Source of the DNA: Buchnera aphidicola (Hyalopterus amygdali)
Lineage (GTDB): Bacteria; Pseudomonadota; Gammaproteobacteria; Enterobacterales; Enterobacteriaceae
Assembly (NCBI RefSeq): GCF_964059015.1
Contig: NZ_OZ060383.1
Span: forward strand, 310,001-374,000
Length of the DNA stretch: 64,000 nt
Reading direction: 5' to 3'
Part shown: positions 16,672 to 45,995 of the stretch, one piece after another
How positions within the stretch are numbered: position 1 is the stretch's first letter
How the letters are laid out: each line of letters begins with the position of its first letter
Made by a program: the position numbers and the translations under genes
Notes under the pieces: generated by a model
Told to the model about the DNA's origin: nothing
Database searches by the model: none
What the model saw: only the letters and a program-made list of their open reading frames with translations

Positions 16672-18113
16672 ATGAAAACTAATTTAGTTTGGTTTCGCAA
16701 TGACTTGCGTGTATATGATAATGCTGCATTATACAATGCTTGTATATCCAATGACGAAAAAGTTATCGGATTATTTATTTCCACTTCAAAGCAATGGAGA
16801 GATGATTTTTTTTCCCCAAAAAAAATATCATTTATTTATCATAATTTAATAAGTTTGAAAGAAGAATTGCTTAAATTAAATATTCATTTACACTATCATG
16901 ATTCTACTGATTTTTTAAGTTCAATTGACTATTTAGTTTATTTTTGTAAAAAATATCAAATAAAAAATTTATTTTATAATTATCAATATGAAATTAATGA
17001 AAGTAATCGAGATAATCTAGTAAAAAAAAACTATTTAAAAAAGGCGTTTGTATAAAAGGATTTCACAGTAACCTATTAATTCCATCTAATCAAATAAAAA
17101 ATACAAACAATCAAGCATATAGAATTTTTTCTTTTTTTAAAAAAAAAGTAGTGTATCATTTATCACAGAATATTCCAGAATGTTTTCCCGCTCCTACCAA
17201 GAGAAAAGCTTTTTCTCATTTTTTTTTATCAAAGTTATCATCAAAAAAAATTATTATTAATTTTAATCAAAAACATTTCCCAATAGGAGAAAAACAAGCT
17301 ATTAATAAATTACATGCTTTTTGCAAAAATAAATTAAAGGCATATTCTTTAAAAAGAAATTTTCCATTTTTAAACAGTACTAGTATGCTGTCTCCATATT
17401 TATCTTTAGGAATAATATCTCCTCGATATTGTTTAAAAGTCATATTGAAAAAATATAAAAATATACCATTAAATATTATTTTAAATTCATCTTGGTTAAA
17501 TGAAATTATATGGCGTGAATTTTATTATCATTTATTAATTAATTTTCCATTATTAGGCCACTCTGAATCATTAATGAAATGGGAAAAAAAAATTAACTGG
17601 ATAGATAATATAAATCACTTTAATGCTTGGAAAGATGGAAAAACAGGATTTCCAATAATAGATGCAGGAATGAGACAATTAAACAAAACAGGTTGGATGC
17701 ATAATAGATTAAGAATGATTACATCGAGTTTTTTAATTAAAAACCTTTTAATTAATTGGCGAAGGGGTGAAAAATATTTCATGTCGCGTTTGATTGATGG
17801 TGATTTCGCAATAAATAATGGCGGATGGCAATGGTCTGCATCAATAGGGAGTGATTCTGTTCCGTATATACGTATTTTTAATCCCATTAATCAGTCAAAA
17901 AATTTTGATAAGTATGGTTTATTTATACGAAAATATTTACCTGAATTAAATATTATTCCAGATAATTATATTCATAATCCACATAATTGGTTAAAAGAAA
18001 ATAATTATAAAATAAATTATCCTCAACCAATTATAAATTATCAAACTAGCAAGGAAAAGGCATTATCAATATACAAAAAAGCACAATTAGATTCAAAAAA
18101 TGAAAAGGTTTAA
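16672..18113 (+). pseudogene. phrB: Deoxyribodipyrimidine photolyase, frameshifted at a poly(A) site
   Basis: PhrB repairs cyclobutane pyrimidine dimers using FADH- and light. The N-terminal antenna domain (NLVWFRNDLRVYDNAAL) is read from 16672 to a stop at 17055. The rest runs in the next frame from about 17030 to 18113, with the FAD-binding segments WLNEIIWREFYYH, GWMHNRLRMITSSFL and INNGGWQWSAS. Homology is continuous across the junction (KKGVCIKGF against E. coli VVCEGF) if one A is added to the A9 run at 17022-17030 or the A6 run at 17037-17042. Everything else looks intact, so it is either a recent pseudogene or a gene rescued by slippage. ybgI starts 5 bp after it. Confidence 0.85.
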
Positions 18114-27011: not shown

Positions 27012-28691
27012 CTATTCAGTATTTTTAGCGGCTTTAAAGGCTTCTGCCATAACGTTTGAAAAAGATTCATCATTTAATTTTGCATTTGATTTATTTTTTA
27101 CATCTTTAATATGTTCATTTTTATCTGAAATATAAAAATTAAGATTAATAATTCTATTTTTTCGATCAAAATTAGATATTTTTACTAAAATAGTATCATC
27201 TATTTTTGATTTTTTTATTATTTCTTCATAATGAAGACGAGAAGATTCAGAAAATTTTATATTTCCTTCTATACCTTCTGATAATTTTACTATTATACCT
27301 TTTTTATCAAAGAATTTGATTTTTCCTGTAATTATAGCACCTTTTTTATAATTTGAAATATATGTATTTAAAGGATCGTCTTCTAATTGTTTAATTCCTA
27401 AAGAAATACGCTCTCGTTCTGCATCTACTTGTAAAACTATAGCTGATATTTCATCACCTTTTTTATAATTTTTAACAGCTTCTTCACCTGGAGTAATCCA
27501 TGAAATATCTGATAAATGTACTAATCCATCAATACCACCTTTTAGCCCAATGAAAATGCCGAAATCTGTAATAGATTTTATTTTTCCAGCAACACGAATT
27601 CCTTTTTTATGAGTTTCAGAAAATTGTTGCCAAGGATTAATTTTACACTGTTTCAAACCAAGAGAAATACGACGACGTTCTTCATCAATATCTAAAACTA
27701 TAACATCTACCATATCATTGACTGAAACTACCTTAGATGGATGAATATTCTTATTTGTCCAATCCATTTCAGATACATGTACAAGACCTTCTACACCTTC
27801 CTCGATTTCTACAAAACAGCCATAATCTGTTAGATTTGTCACACGACCAGTTAACTTAATTCCCTCAGGATAACGATTGGAGATAGCTATCCAAGGATCT
27901 TCGCCTAATTGCTTTAATCCTAGAGAAACGCGCGTTCTTTCTCTATCGAATTTTAATATTTTAACATCAATTTCATCACCAACATTTACAATTTCATTTG
28001 GATGTTTTACTCTTTTCCAAGCCATATCAGTAATATGTAGTAATCCATCGACTCCGCCTAAATCTACAAAAGCACCATAATCTGTTAAATTTTTTACAAT
28101 ACCTTTAATTTTTATACCTTCCTGTAAATTTTCAAGTAATTGATCTCTTTCGGCACTGTTTTCAGATTCAATTACCGCTCTTCGGGAAACAACAACATTA
28201 TTTCTTTTTTGATCTAATTTAATTACTTTAAATTCTAGTTCTTTACCTTCAAGATGAATAGTATCTCTAACAGGACGAATATCTACTAAAGATCCCGGTA
28301 AAAACGCACGTATATCATTTAGTTCTACAGTAAATCCACCTTTCACTTTTCCATTAATAATACCTATAACTATTTCTGATTTTTCATGAGCTTGTTCTAA
28401 TATTAACCATGCTTCATGTCGTTTTGCTTTTTCTCGAGATAAAAGTGTTTCTCCGAATCCATCTTCAATAGCATCCAAAGCTACGTCAATTTGGTCTCCA
28501 ATTTTTATTTCTAGCACTCCTTGGGAGTTTTTAAATTGTTCAGATGGAATAGAAGATTCAGATTTAAGACCAGCGTCAACAAGTACTATATCTTTTTCTA
28601 TAGAAACAACAACTCCACGAATAATAGAACCTGGACGAGTTTTAATCTCTTTTAGCGATTCTTCAAATAATTGAGCAAAAGATTCATTCAT
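27012..28691 (-). CDS. rpsA: 30S ribosomal protein S1
   Basis: S1 brings mRNA to the 30S subunit. It has 559 residues, against 557 in E. coli, built of six S1 OB-fold repeats; the repeated signatures [35 protein letters not shown] and [18 protein letters not shown] mark domains 3 to 5. Domains 1-2, which bind the ribosome, and the last domain are also intact. The best-conserved protein in this block. It lies between cmk and ihfB as in enterobacteria. In E. coli it represses its own translation; no equivalent leader structure is evident here. Confidence 0.98.
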
Positions 28692-28796: not shown

Positions 28797-29479
28797 TTAC
28801 AATAAAAATTTTTGTTTTTTTGTAAAATAAACATTTATTTTTTTATAATATAATTTCATAAAAAAATTCATTACTTCATTAAAATTCATATTTGTTGAAT
28901 CTAATATTATAGCATTTTCTGATGGGCATAAAGGAGAAATTAATCTATTCTTATCACGTTCATCACGAATTTTCATTTCTTTTGATAATTCTTTGAAATT
29001 AACGTAATATCCATTTTTTTTTAATTGTAAAAATCTTCTATAAACTCGAGATTCTAATGTTGCATCTAAAAAAAGTTTAACGATAGCATCAGGAAAAACT
29101 ATTGTACCCATATCTCGTCCTTCTGCTATCAAACCTGGAAAACAACGAAAACGCCTTTGCTGATTCAGTAAAAGTTTTCTCACTTTGCCTAGTGTTCCTA
29201 ATTGAGAAGCAATCTCGCTAACTTTTCGAAAAGTTATTTTTTTTGAGTATTTTATTAATCTTTTTTTTAAATAAATATGTCTAACTGTTTCTATAATAGG
29301 AATAATATTTTTTTCTACAATAGGAATTTTTTTTTTAACATAAAAAATGCTAAATATCGATATATTATACCTGATTCTAATATATGCCACTTAAGTTTTT
29401 GAGCAATTGCTTTAGACAAACAACTTTTTCCAACACCACTGGGTCCATCAATTGTCACAACAGGAATTTTATTATTCAT
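28797..29479 (-). CDS. cmk: Cytidylate kinase, interrupted by a frameshift in an A10 tract
   Basis: Cmk phosphorylates CMP and dCMP. The N-terminus is read from the ATG at 29479 with the P-loop [17 protein letters not shown], and meets a stop after [10 protein letters not shown]. The remaining protein is in the next frame down to 28797, with [15 protein letters not shown], the NMP-binding region and RDERDKNR of the lid. The switch coincides with an A10 run on the coding strand (T10 at 29327-29336); A11 would give an uninterrupted product of about 227 residues, the E. coli length. The gene sits between rpsA and aroA as usual. Because all motifs survive, transcript slippage rescue is likely, though an early pseudogene or sequencing error is possible. 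Confidence 0.85.
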
Positions 29480-29524: not shown

Positions 29525-30811
29525 TTAACGAAATTTGCTAATATTTAGGAATTTTTGAAAATAAGAAGGAAAAGTTTTAGAAATACAGCTGGGATTAAGT
29601 ATATTTACACTTATACCAGATAAACATATCAAAGAAAAACACATAGCCATACGATGATCATTATATGTATTAATTTCTGCAAATTGAAAAGAATTAGGAG
29701 GAGTAATTTCTAAAAAATCTCTTCCTTCTTTTACTATAGCTCCAATTTTTTTTAGTTCTTTAGTCATTGCTGATAATCGATCAGTCTCTTTAACACGCCA
29801 ATTATATATATTTTTGATAATTGAAGTTCCGTTAGCAAAAAGCGATACTATAGCAACAGTCATTGCTGCATCCGGGATATGGTTCATATCTAATTCTATT
29901 TTTTCTAATTTATTACGTGTACAAGTAATAAAAGAATCGCCCCAATTAATAATTGCTCCCATTTTTTTAAGAACATCTGCGAATTTTATATCTCCCTGTA
30001 TGCTTTTTTTACCTATCCCAATAACTTTCACTGAACCGCCTTTGATAGCAGCAGCTGCTAAAAAATAAGATGCTGAAGACGCATCTCCCTCTATTAAATA
30101 ATTGCCTGGTGATGTATATGTTTGATTACCCTGTATATAAAAAACTTTATACGCATCATTTTTAATATTAACACCAAAAGATTTTATTAGATTTAATGTA
30201 ATATCAATATAGGGTTTAGAAACTAAATTACCTTTAATAGTAATCTTACTATCCTTTAATGCTAATGGACAAATCATTAGCAATGATGTTAAAAACTGAC
30301 TAGAAATACGGCCATCTACTACAATAGAACCACCTGTAAAACCACCTCTTGTTAAAATAGGAGGATATCCTATATTTTTTTTATATTCAATAATAGCCCC
30401 ACCTTGTTTTAAAGCATCAACAAGATGTTTAATTGGTCTTTCATGCATTCTATTATCTCCACTTAATAAAATATTGTTTTTATTTAATGACAATGCTGCA
30501 AGAAGAGGACGCATAGCAGTTCCTGCATTTCCTAAAAACAATGAAATTGTGTCAGACAAAAAAAATGCTTTTCCAATACCATAAACATGACATGTTGTAT
30601 TTTTTTTTGATAAAACAAACTTAACTCCAATTTTTTTTAAACTACTCAACATATACTCAACGTCTTGACTATCTAATAAGTTATTCAAACAAGTAATACC
30701 ACTAGCCATAGCGGATAATAATAAAACTCTATTTGATATACTTTTTGAACCAGGTAAATGAACTTCTCCCTCTACATAGGATACTGGTTTTAATTTTAAA
30801 CAATTTTGCAT
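29525..30811 (-). CDS. aroA: 3-phosphoshikimate 1-carboxyvinyltransferase (EPSP synthase)
   Basis: AroA joins shikimate-3-phosphate and PEP to form EPSP in chorismate synthesis, which supplies aromatic amino acids to the host. It has 428 residues (427 in E. coli). Signature blocks are [68 protein letters not shown] and [12 protein letters not shown]. It is preceded closely by serC (31 bp), as in the E. coli serC-aroA operon. A T9/A9 run at 30600-30608 stays in frame. Confidence 0.98.
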
Positions 30812-43699: not shown

Positions 43700-45280
43700 A
43701 TGGAGTTTTTTTTAGACCCGTCAATCTGGGCCGGCTTGTTAACATTAGTTATTTTAGAAGTAGTATTAGGAATTGATAATCTAATATTTGTGGCAATTTT
43801 ATCAGAAAAACTACCTCCTAATCAAAGAGATAAAGCACGTTTAATTGGTTTAGGATTAGCTTTGATTATGCGATTAGCATTATTATCATTGATATCCTGG
43901 GTCGTAACACTGACTTCTCCTATTATTAGTAATAAATTCTTTTCTTTATCAATACGTGATTTAATATTACTTATTGGTGGTTTATTTCTTCTTTTTAAAG
44001 CTACTATTGAATTACACGAACGATTAGAAAATGAAGATCATGATAATACAGAGAATAAAAATTATGCTAGTTTTTGGGCTGTAGTAATTCAAATAGTTAT
44101 TTTAGATGCAGTTTTTTCTTTAGATGCAATCATTACAGCTGTTGGAATGGTTAATCAATTATTAATTATGATGATAGCAGTAATATTAGCTACAATATTA
44201 ATGTTATTAGCATCAAAAGCATTAACAAAATTTATTAACATTCATCAAACAGTAGTTGTGCTATGTCTTAGTTTTTTATTAATGATTGGATTTAGTTTAG
44301 TTGCAGAAGCATTAAGATTTTATATCCCGAAGGGATACCTATATGCAGCAATAGGATTTTCAATTTTAATTGAAATTTTCAATCAAATCGCTCGTCATAA
44401 CTTTATGAAAAACCAATCTAGAAAACCTATGCGACAAAGAGCGGCTGAAGCTATATTACGTTTAATGATAAGAGAGAAAAATAAAAATACAAAAATAAAA
44501 AGAAAACAAGTTAACAATACAAAAGAAATAGCAATTTCATCTTCTCTAGAAACAGAGAGTTTTAAAGAAGAAGAAAAATATATGATCAATGGAGTTCTTA
44601 CCTTAGCTGGTCGATCTATTAAAAGCATTATGACTCCTCGAAGTAATATATCTTGGGTAAATACAGAAAAAAATATTAATGAAATTCGCTTGCAATTATT
44701 AGACACACCTCATAGTTTATTCCCTGTATGTAAAGGTGAATTAGATGAAATAATAGGAATTGTTAGAGCTAAAGAATTATTAGTTGCTATTGAAAAAAAA
44801 ATAGATGTTTATCAGTTTTCTTCTAAAATACCACCTATTATTATACCAGATACTCTTGATCCTATAAACTTACTTGGAGTCTTACGTCGTGCTCAAGGTA
44901 GCTTTGTAATCGTAAGTAATGAGTTTGGTGTTGTTCAAGGTCTAATTACACCATTAGATGTTTTAGAAGCTATAGCAGGAGAATTTCCAGATGCAGATGA
45001 AACTCCAGATATTATACAAGAAAAAAATAGCTGGTTAGTTAAGGGAGAAACAGATTTACATTCTTTACAACAACTCCTAAATACAAAGGAATTAGTTAAA
45101 AAAGAAGATTGTGCTTCCTTAGGAGGTCTATTAATTTCTCAAAAAGGTCAACTACCTTCGCAAGGCGATATAATTTATATTAATAATTTTTCTTTTCATA
45201 TTGTAAAAGCTACAAAATATCGTATTGATTTAGTTAGAATTATTAAGAACCAAGATATAAATAAAACATATTCTACATAA
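43700..45280 (+). CDS. yoaE: TerC/CBS-domain membrane protein YoaE
   Basis: This is an inner-membrane protein with an N-terminal TerC domain (seven or so helices; [18 protein letters not shown] and [18 protein letters not shown] carry its paired Asp motifs), followed by two CBS domains ([29 protein letters not shown]) and a C-terminal CorC/HlyC-type transporter-associated domain. A role in metal or tellurium ion handling is inferred from TerC; the exact substrate is unknown. I choose the ATG at 43700, preceded by GGAG at 43689-43692, because it aligns with E. coli MEFLMDPSIW; an upstream ATG at 43628 would add 24 unmatched residues. The length is 526, against 518 in E. coli. Confidence 0.9.
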
Positions 45281-45330
45281 TTTTTTATTTAAATAAAACT
45301 TCATTTTATTCCATCAATTTTGAGAAAAGA

Positions 45331-45995
45331 ATGTCTGACACAATTTTAGCAATTGATACTTCAATGGATTATTGTTCAGTTGCTGTATATAAAAAAAAAA
45401 AATATATTCAATATCAGAAAAATGTAAAAAAGAACATACTAAAAAAATTTTACCTATGATTAAGCAAATACTAAAAAATGCTGACATCACCTTACGAGAA
45501 TTAAATTATGTAGCTTGTTCAAAAGGACCAGGTAGATTTACTGGCATACGTATTGCTATAGGTATTGCGCAGAGTTTTTCTTTAAGTTTAAAAATACCTA
45601 TATTAGACATTTCAACTTTATCTATAATAGCTGAAAAAGCATGGAGAAAATATAAAATAAAAAAAATACTAATAGCCATTAGTGCTAAATTAGGACAAGT
45701 ATATTGGGGTGAGTATATTAGGCATGATATATCATTATGGATAGGAGAAAAAACAGAATCTTTAATCCATATTAATACAATAGAAAAAAAAATGAAAAAT
45801 TTTAAAGAAAAATGGACTTTAGTTGGAGATGGATGGGAAAAAATTAAATTTAATAATTTTTCAATATCAAAAAAAAGTAAAATTTTATATCCTAATGCAC
45901 AAGATATAATCCCATTGGCTTTATTCAAAATTAAAAAGAAAGAATTTTTGCATTTTACTGAAGTCAGTAATAATTATTTAGATACATTATTTTAA
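45331..45995 (+). CDS. tsaB: tRNA threonylcarbamoyladenosine synthesis protein TsaB, frameshifted in an A12 tract
   Basis: TsaB (YeaZ) is the non-catalytic partner of TsaD needed for t6A at position 37 of ANN-decoding tRNAs. The N-terminus is read from the ATG at 45331 (TILAIDTSMDYCSVAVYKKKK) and then stops. The rest (KKEHTKKILPMIKQIL, then CSKGPGRFTGIRIAIGIAQ) is in another frame to 45995. The switch is at an A12 run, 45391-45402; A13 restores one frame of about 222 residues, against 231 in E. coli. All conserved blocks are retained. An independent start inside the second frame (ATG at 45456) would lack the first beta-strands of the ASKHA fold. Confidence 0.85.

Follow-up and report, generated by a model that had tools for sequence, protein, structure and literature searches.

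The window, as we call the whole stretch of 64,000 nucleotides analysed here (part of genome G000, contig 1 from 310001), carries aroA, cmk and rpsA in this order on its minus strand. The upstream and downstream neighbours of cmk, aroA (29525..30811, minus strand) and rpsA (27012..28691, minus strand), are both intact, as an earlier note on this DNA had claimed: they are open in the window and in 36/36 genomes examined, rpsA with a full-length match and no inner stop. Between them, cmk is divided over two reading frames of the minus strand. A 5′ ORF of 54 aa (29315..29479) holds the P-loop GPSGVGKS, and a 3′ ORF of 197 aa (28797..29390) holds GRDMG and the remaining kinase; the placing of these two motifs in separate frames is confirmed by the ORF coordinates and translations. 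We do not take the GTG that opens the 197-aa ORF to be a genuine start codon. The two halves match positions 1-44 and 37-208 of the Cytidylate_kin profile (PF02224, length 211) and overlap in few of its positions. Against TIGR00017 (length 217) they cover positions 3-48 and 84-215 with 53.3 and 131.2 bits, and neither alone reaches the cut-off of 135.55.

The frame break (site 1) can be read directly from the sequence and lies exactly where the earlier note had put it, at an A10 tract (29327..29336, minus strand) that appears as T10 on the plus strand and as A10 on the coding strand. Where the two frames overlap, this tract is the sole A-run of at least seven. The P-loop frame meets a stop codon a few codons past the A10, and the GRDMG frame continues from the tract. 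The halves were also said to join here without loss and to give the E. coli length, and they do so: reading across the tract yields 227 aa, as in E. coli Cmk. The joined protein can be aligned over its residues 5-209 with E. coli Cmk (1kdo, 227 aa; E value 4e-55). The P-loop, substrate-binding and lid segments, which we take to have these roles in Cmk, are present and aligned to the E. coli protein, including RDERDKNR. Apart from the single break within a homopolymer of at least nine, the A10, cmk of the window has no further frame break or stop.

cmk is whole, split or lost among Buchnera genomes

The earlier note read the split gene as one that may be live, rescued by polymerase slippage at the tract and needed as a core nucleotide enzyme. 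Of 36 genomes of the genus Buchnera, 15 have a whole cmk and 14, counting that of the window, a split one; in the other seven (G015, G019, G023, G012, G026, G020 and G035) the gene has decayed or is gone. The last group includes the three relatives nearest to the window among the genomes compared, and the gene can therefore be dispensed with, so that the argument from essentiality fails. In these three relatives (G015, G019 and G023; L045, L049 and L052), cmk is seen in different stages of decay and is still well recognisable in G019.

The main rival to rescue by slippage is that cmk of the window is a young pseudogene, its break being recent or useless, its sequence on the way to being lost as in the sister lineages and its low omega (see below) dating from before the break. 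We regard this as unlikely, although decay or loss in 7/36 genomes, the three nearest relatives among them, speaks for it. The breaks of the split copies point the other way. All 14 split copies are broken at an A-run of 9-11 with both halves otherwise open, and a second frame break or stop was found in 0/14. Thirteen of the 14 break some 20 codons further downstream, at another tract (site 2), and the window alone breaks at site 1, which is unbroken in the remaining 28 aligned cmk copies. An A9 break at site 2 is common to six related genomes (G014, G009, G021, G002, G006 and G001), and the related genomes G028 and G029 (L056 and L057) are split at site 2 as well. In 13/14 split copies the 3′ part is in the −1 frame, a sign for which one extra mRNA base would bridge the break; the sole copy of opposite sign is that of G032 (L060), also split at site 2. 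The 15 whole copies hold 17 in-frame A-runs of at least nine among them, and aroA and rpsA together have seven A-runs of 9 and none longer.

On the tree of the 29 genomes whose cmk could be read, the state of the gene (whole or split) changed at least eight times, no significant departure from the mean of 9.9 obtained with shuffled labels (P 0.16), and the frame state of cmk therefore changes often. Such frequent changes make recent events plausible, in line with a young pseudogene. Since clustering on the tree did not stand out, a single old origin of the site-2 splits is not claimed.

A sister protein appears to share the break

In a protein search, the best match of the 197-aa ORF was P0001 (192 aa; source label lgn), a protein from a contig of 51,010 bases, with 78% identity over 97% of the ORF; among the best 120 of 263 matches listed, no other protein covered the ORF equally. 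The N-terminus of P0001 corresponds to what the window encodes, in the alternative frame, ahead of the A10 tract, and the letters at its start are encodable jointly with 19/20 of the residues of the window's P-loop frame. From this protein reading, the break of the window appears to be common to P0001. The two proteins are sisters in the tree (UFBoot 100), with 78.4% identity over 125 aligned positions. They differ in 1/47 conserved columns and in 26/78 variable columns (p 1.1e-5). The window and the decayed copy of G019, by comparison, differ in 12/47 conserved and 39/76 variable columns, and control comparisons among whole or split copies (seven pairs) gave differences in 0 to 4 of 47-48 conserved columns. 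These column counts cover the 3′ part of cmk and indicate constraint on it since the window and P0001 split. Among 66 pairs of copies with an identity of 0.70-0.82 in the 3′ part of cmk, the median distance in aroA and rpsA was 0.25 substitutions per site (range 0.14-0.47); the break, if it is common to P0001 by descent, is therefore not recent.

If cmk is a young pseudogene, the tract in P0001 would have been broken independently, but site 1 is broken in 0/28 further aligned copies and only one of the 47 conserved columns has changed between the sisters. P0001 also bears on the view that the break is a homopolymer error of assembly or sequencing and that the true genome is in frame. Such runs are error-prone in some technologies, and low coverage of poly-A rich regions was reported from one Buchnera project (PMC3890641). 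An error in a single assembly is nevertheless unlikely, because the protein reading of P0001, from another organism, points to the same break. Tract breaks also occur in 13 further genomes, and the window has seven more 10-base runs that sit inside ORFs of at least 90 aa, whose genes were checked in part. We therefore consider an error hardly credible; the break in cmk of the window is probably real, and it may be old.

Purifying selection on whole and split copies

We estimated omega from codon models (IQ-TREE) for the 5′ and 3′ parts apart. The 14 split copies gave 0.113 (5′) and 0.152 (3′) and the 15 whole copies 0.112 (5′) and 0.123 (3′), each value far from 1, so that constraint on split copies of cmk is about equal to that on whole ones. 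Tests of single tips, in which G019 was included as a decayed control, gave an omega of 0.114 for the window, well below 1 (p 1.8e-8) and close to the background (p 0.55). The signal was clear in the 3′ half (omega 0.085, p 1e-7 versus 1), while the 5′ half alone, with an omega of 0.218 (p 0.06), was not significantly below 1. The decayed tip of G019 behaved differently, with an omega of 0.479 (p 0.17 versus 1, p 0.003 versus background).

These estimates allow room for a young pseudogene in two respects. The constraint on the tip branch of the window may be mostly older than the break, and some split copies may be relaxing: the 3′ half of G014 has an omega of 0.66 (p 0.008 versus background) and G024 one of 0.32 (p 0.04). 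In a neutral simulation to the divergence of the window, with assumed base frequencies and transition bias, 6.6% of 2000 runs stayed free of stops; missing stops are therefore too weak as proof of constraint and were not used as such.

Homopolymer breaks in tsaB and phrB

The window contains 48 A/T runs of at least nine, three of which were found to break genes among the genes checked: the A10 of cmk, an A12 in tsaB and an A9 in phrB. All three leave the 3′ part in the −1 frame. tsaB (YeaZ; 45271-45995, plus strand) is split at the A12 (45391..45402), and phrB, encoding a DNA photolyase (16672-18113, plus strand), at the A9 (17022..17030). phrB is whole in 31 of the 36 genomes, split in four and without a match in G026. 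The same tract is split in G000, G015 and G019; in G023 it is one base longer and the gene is whole, and in G025 phrB is split at another place. TsaB is essential in E. coli, and tsaB has a match above the cut-off in 36/36 Buchnera genomes. It is split at A10-A12 in 10/36 genomes including the window, at two tract sites. A gene that is split so often and never lost speaks for the bridging of such breaks in Buchnera.

The signs of the breaks help to separate two ways of bridging them. Frameshifting by −1 of the ribosome within the A run (A AAA AAA), instead of slippage of the polymerase, would yield the same protein. The −1 sign is right for it in 13/14 split copies of cmk, and heptamers of A are known to be slippery (PMC3711429). 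Heptamers are indeed present within the A10, but the fold downstream is no better than that of shuffled sequences (z 0.57 and 0.34) and no upstream Shine-Dalgarno-like stimulator was seen by eye. Moreover, tsaB is broken in both signs, in five genomes each way (two of the five with opposite sign being sisters), which slippage fits better. Ribosomal frameshifting thus seems very improbable as the source of Cmk. A sign bias was also considered as a general rule and rejected: breaks are of one sign in 13/14 copies of cmk and 4/4 of phrB, but in only 5/10 of tsaB.

The plasmids of genome G000 mark it as a Buchnera, and over its leucine plasmid the nearest named relative among the records compared is the Buchnera of Schizaphis graminum, at 83%. 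Genome G000 also has a contig 3 (L174) of 6776 bases, a plasmid with anthranilate synthase genes. No more than 71% of this plasmid is covered by any of its best plasmid matches. Most of these fall into at least two pieces that lie far apart on the query, with target records some 3-4 kb long, a pattern that may reflect repeated units.

Discussion

Our analysis suggests that cmk of the window is probably a functional gene that is expressed at a reduced level via transcriptional slippage. A one-base change in the length of the poly(A) tract would have cost cmk its genomic frame. RNA polymerase would then insert an extra A on the A10 in a fraction of the transcripts, and the mRNAs with the extra A would be translated straight through to give full Cmk in a reduced amount. 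We infer the slippage at this A10, its rate and the activity of Cmk. The earlier proposal of a live, slippage-rescued gene thus stands in part, as the position of the break exactly at the tract, the constraint on both halves, the break in the sister and the confinement of the relatives' breaks to runs of A9 or longer all fit it; the appeal to the need for a core enzyme had to be given up. Relatives differ in the Lys-rich stretch at the tract, so that heterogeneity in Lys is probably tolerated.

Several published observations bear on insertion at such tracts. Insertions during transcription in Buchnera are mostly of single bases in A/T runs and their rates climb with run length; 151/157 were found in homopolymeric tracts and 80% of the insertions add one base (PMC5574713). 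In the elongation complex, RNA and DNA form a hybrid of nine bases (PMC5574713), a length that runs of A9-A11 therefore span. For frameshifted endosymbiont genes, 12-50% corrected transcripts are cited in a review (PMC5009743), and a paper on Blochmannia quotes a figure of 30% full-length transcripts (PMC3017870). Correction of one locus has been described in the Buchnera of Rhopalosiphum padi (PMC3164680).

Other reports are contrary to rescue. Those on transcription include work on the Buchnera of LSR1, a pea-aphid line. There, Traverse and Ochman detected no transcription error that restored a frame (PMC5574713), an observation that favours a young pseudogene. This transcript study comprised 227 indels in total (PMC5574713), so that, in our judgement, rescue of one gene could be missed. 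E. coli RNA polymerase reportedly bypasses indels rather poorly and prefers poly(T) (PMC6260861), and in one in-vitro test of an A11, cited in the same paper, it favoured deletion. Furthermore, the genes named for predicted deleterious changes in the Buchnera of Myzus persicae include cmk (PMC3890641).

If cmk is live, one more enzyme of an obligate symbiont would run on polymerase error, and pseudogene calls on such genes may understate symbiont metabolism. The gene offers a natural series over the 36 genomes (15 whole, 14 split and seven decayed or lost) with two alternative break sites, on which one can test whether dependence on slippage is a stable state of a gene, a reversible one or a stage on the way to its loss. 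A more far-reaching and rather doubtful idea is that the frame of cmk in Buchnera has long been capable of switching, at either of two poly(A) tracts, between an in-frame and a slippage-dependent state, and that selection eliminates only those breaks that cannot be bridged by slippage. The tracts would then work as a dial, both heritable and reversible, by which the dose of the enzyme is lowered, and the dialled-down state could persist across host genera until the gene is either restored or lost.

Comparison with known systems

Slippage was reportedly described for the mur genes of Buchnera by Tamas et al. (2008, PNAS 105:14934), whose frameshifts at poly(A) are said to be rescued during transcription. 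These genes and cmk have in common an AT-rich aphid symbiont, a one-base break at poly(A) in a gene that is otherwise intact and a proposed slippage of the polymerase. The tract of the Buchnera mur gene is likewise an A10 (PMC6260861). However, corrected transcripts of mur were measured, at 12-50% in a range pooled with a Blochmannia gene (PMC5009743), whereas for cmk of the window correction is predicted from sequence; it is also another gene, broken at another site.

In Blochmannia, homopolymer frameshifts in dnaX, ytfM and other genes are common to species without degradation of the gene, and independent frameshifts or reversions occur within one gene (PMC3017870). Our observations on cmk resemble both of these features, but they concern 36 genomes, two tract sites and whole, split and lost states, while the Blochmannia study deals with three genomes of an ant symbiont (PMC3017870). 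In the Buchnera of Myzus persicae, gene models split at poly(A) were merged by curators and, being conserved on both sides, were held to be functional (PMC3890641), as we propose for cmk. The parts of that paper covered here name cmk and contain no transcript data or discussion of its break; the copy in genome G027 is split at site 2, unlike the window, which is broken at site 1. In Aphidinae Buchnera, single homopolymer frameshifts were similarly tallied apart from other pseudogenes, and murF was struck independently in several lineages (PMC3164680). The main text of that paper has 0 matches to cmk, and among the papers listed in our literature search no title or abstract deals with a cmk break, which supplementary tables may list. 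Overall, slippage rescue of homopolymer breaks is already known in such symbionts, and cmk is probably a further case.
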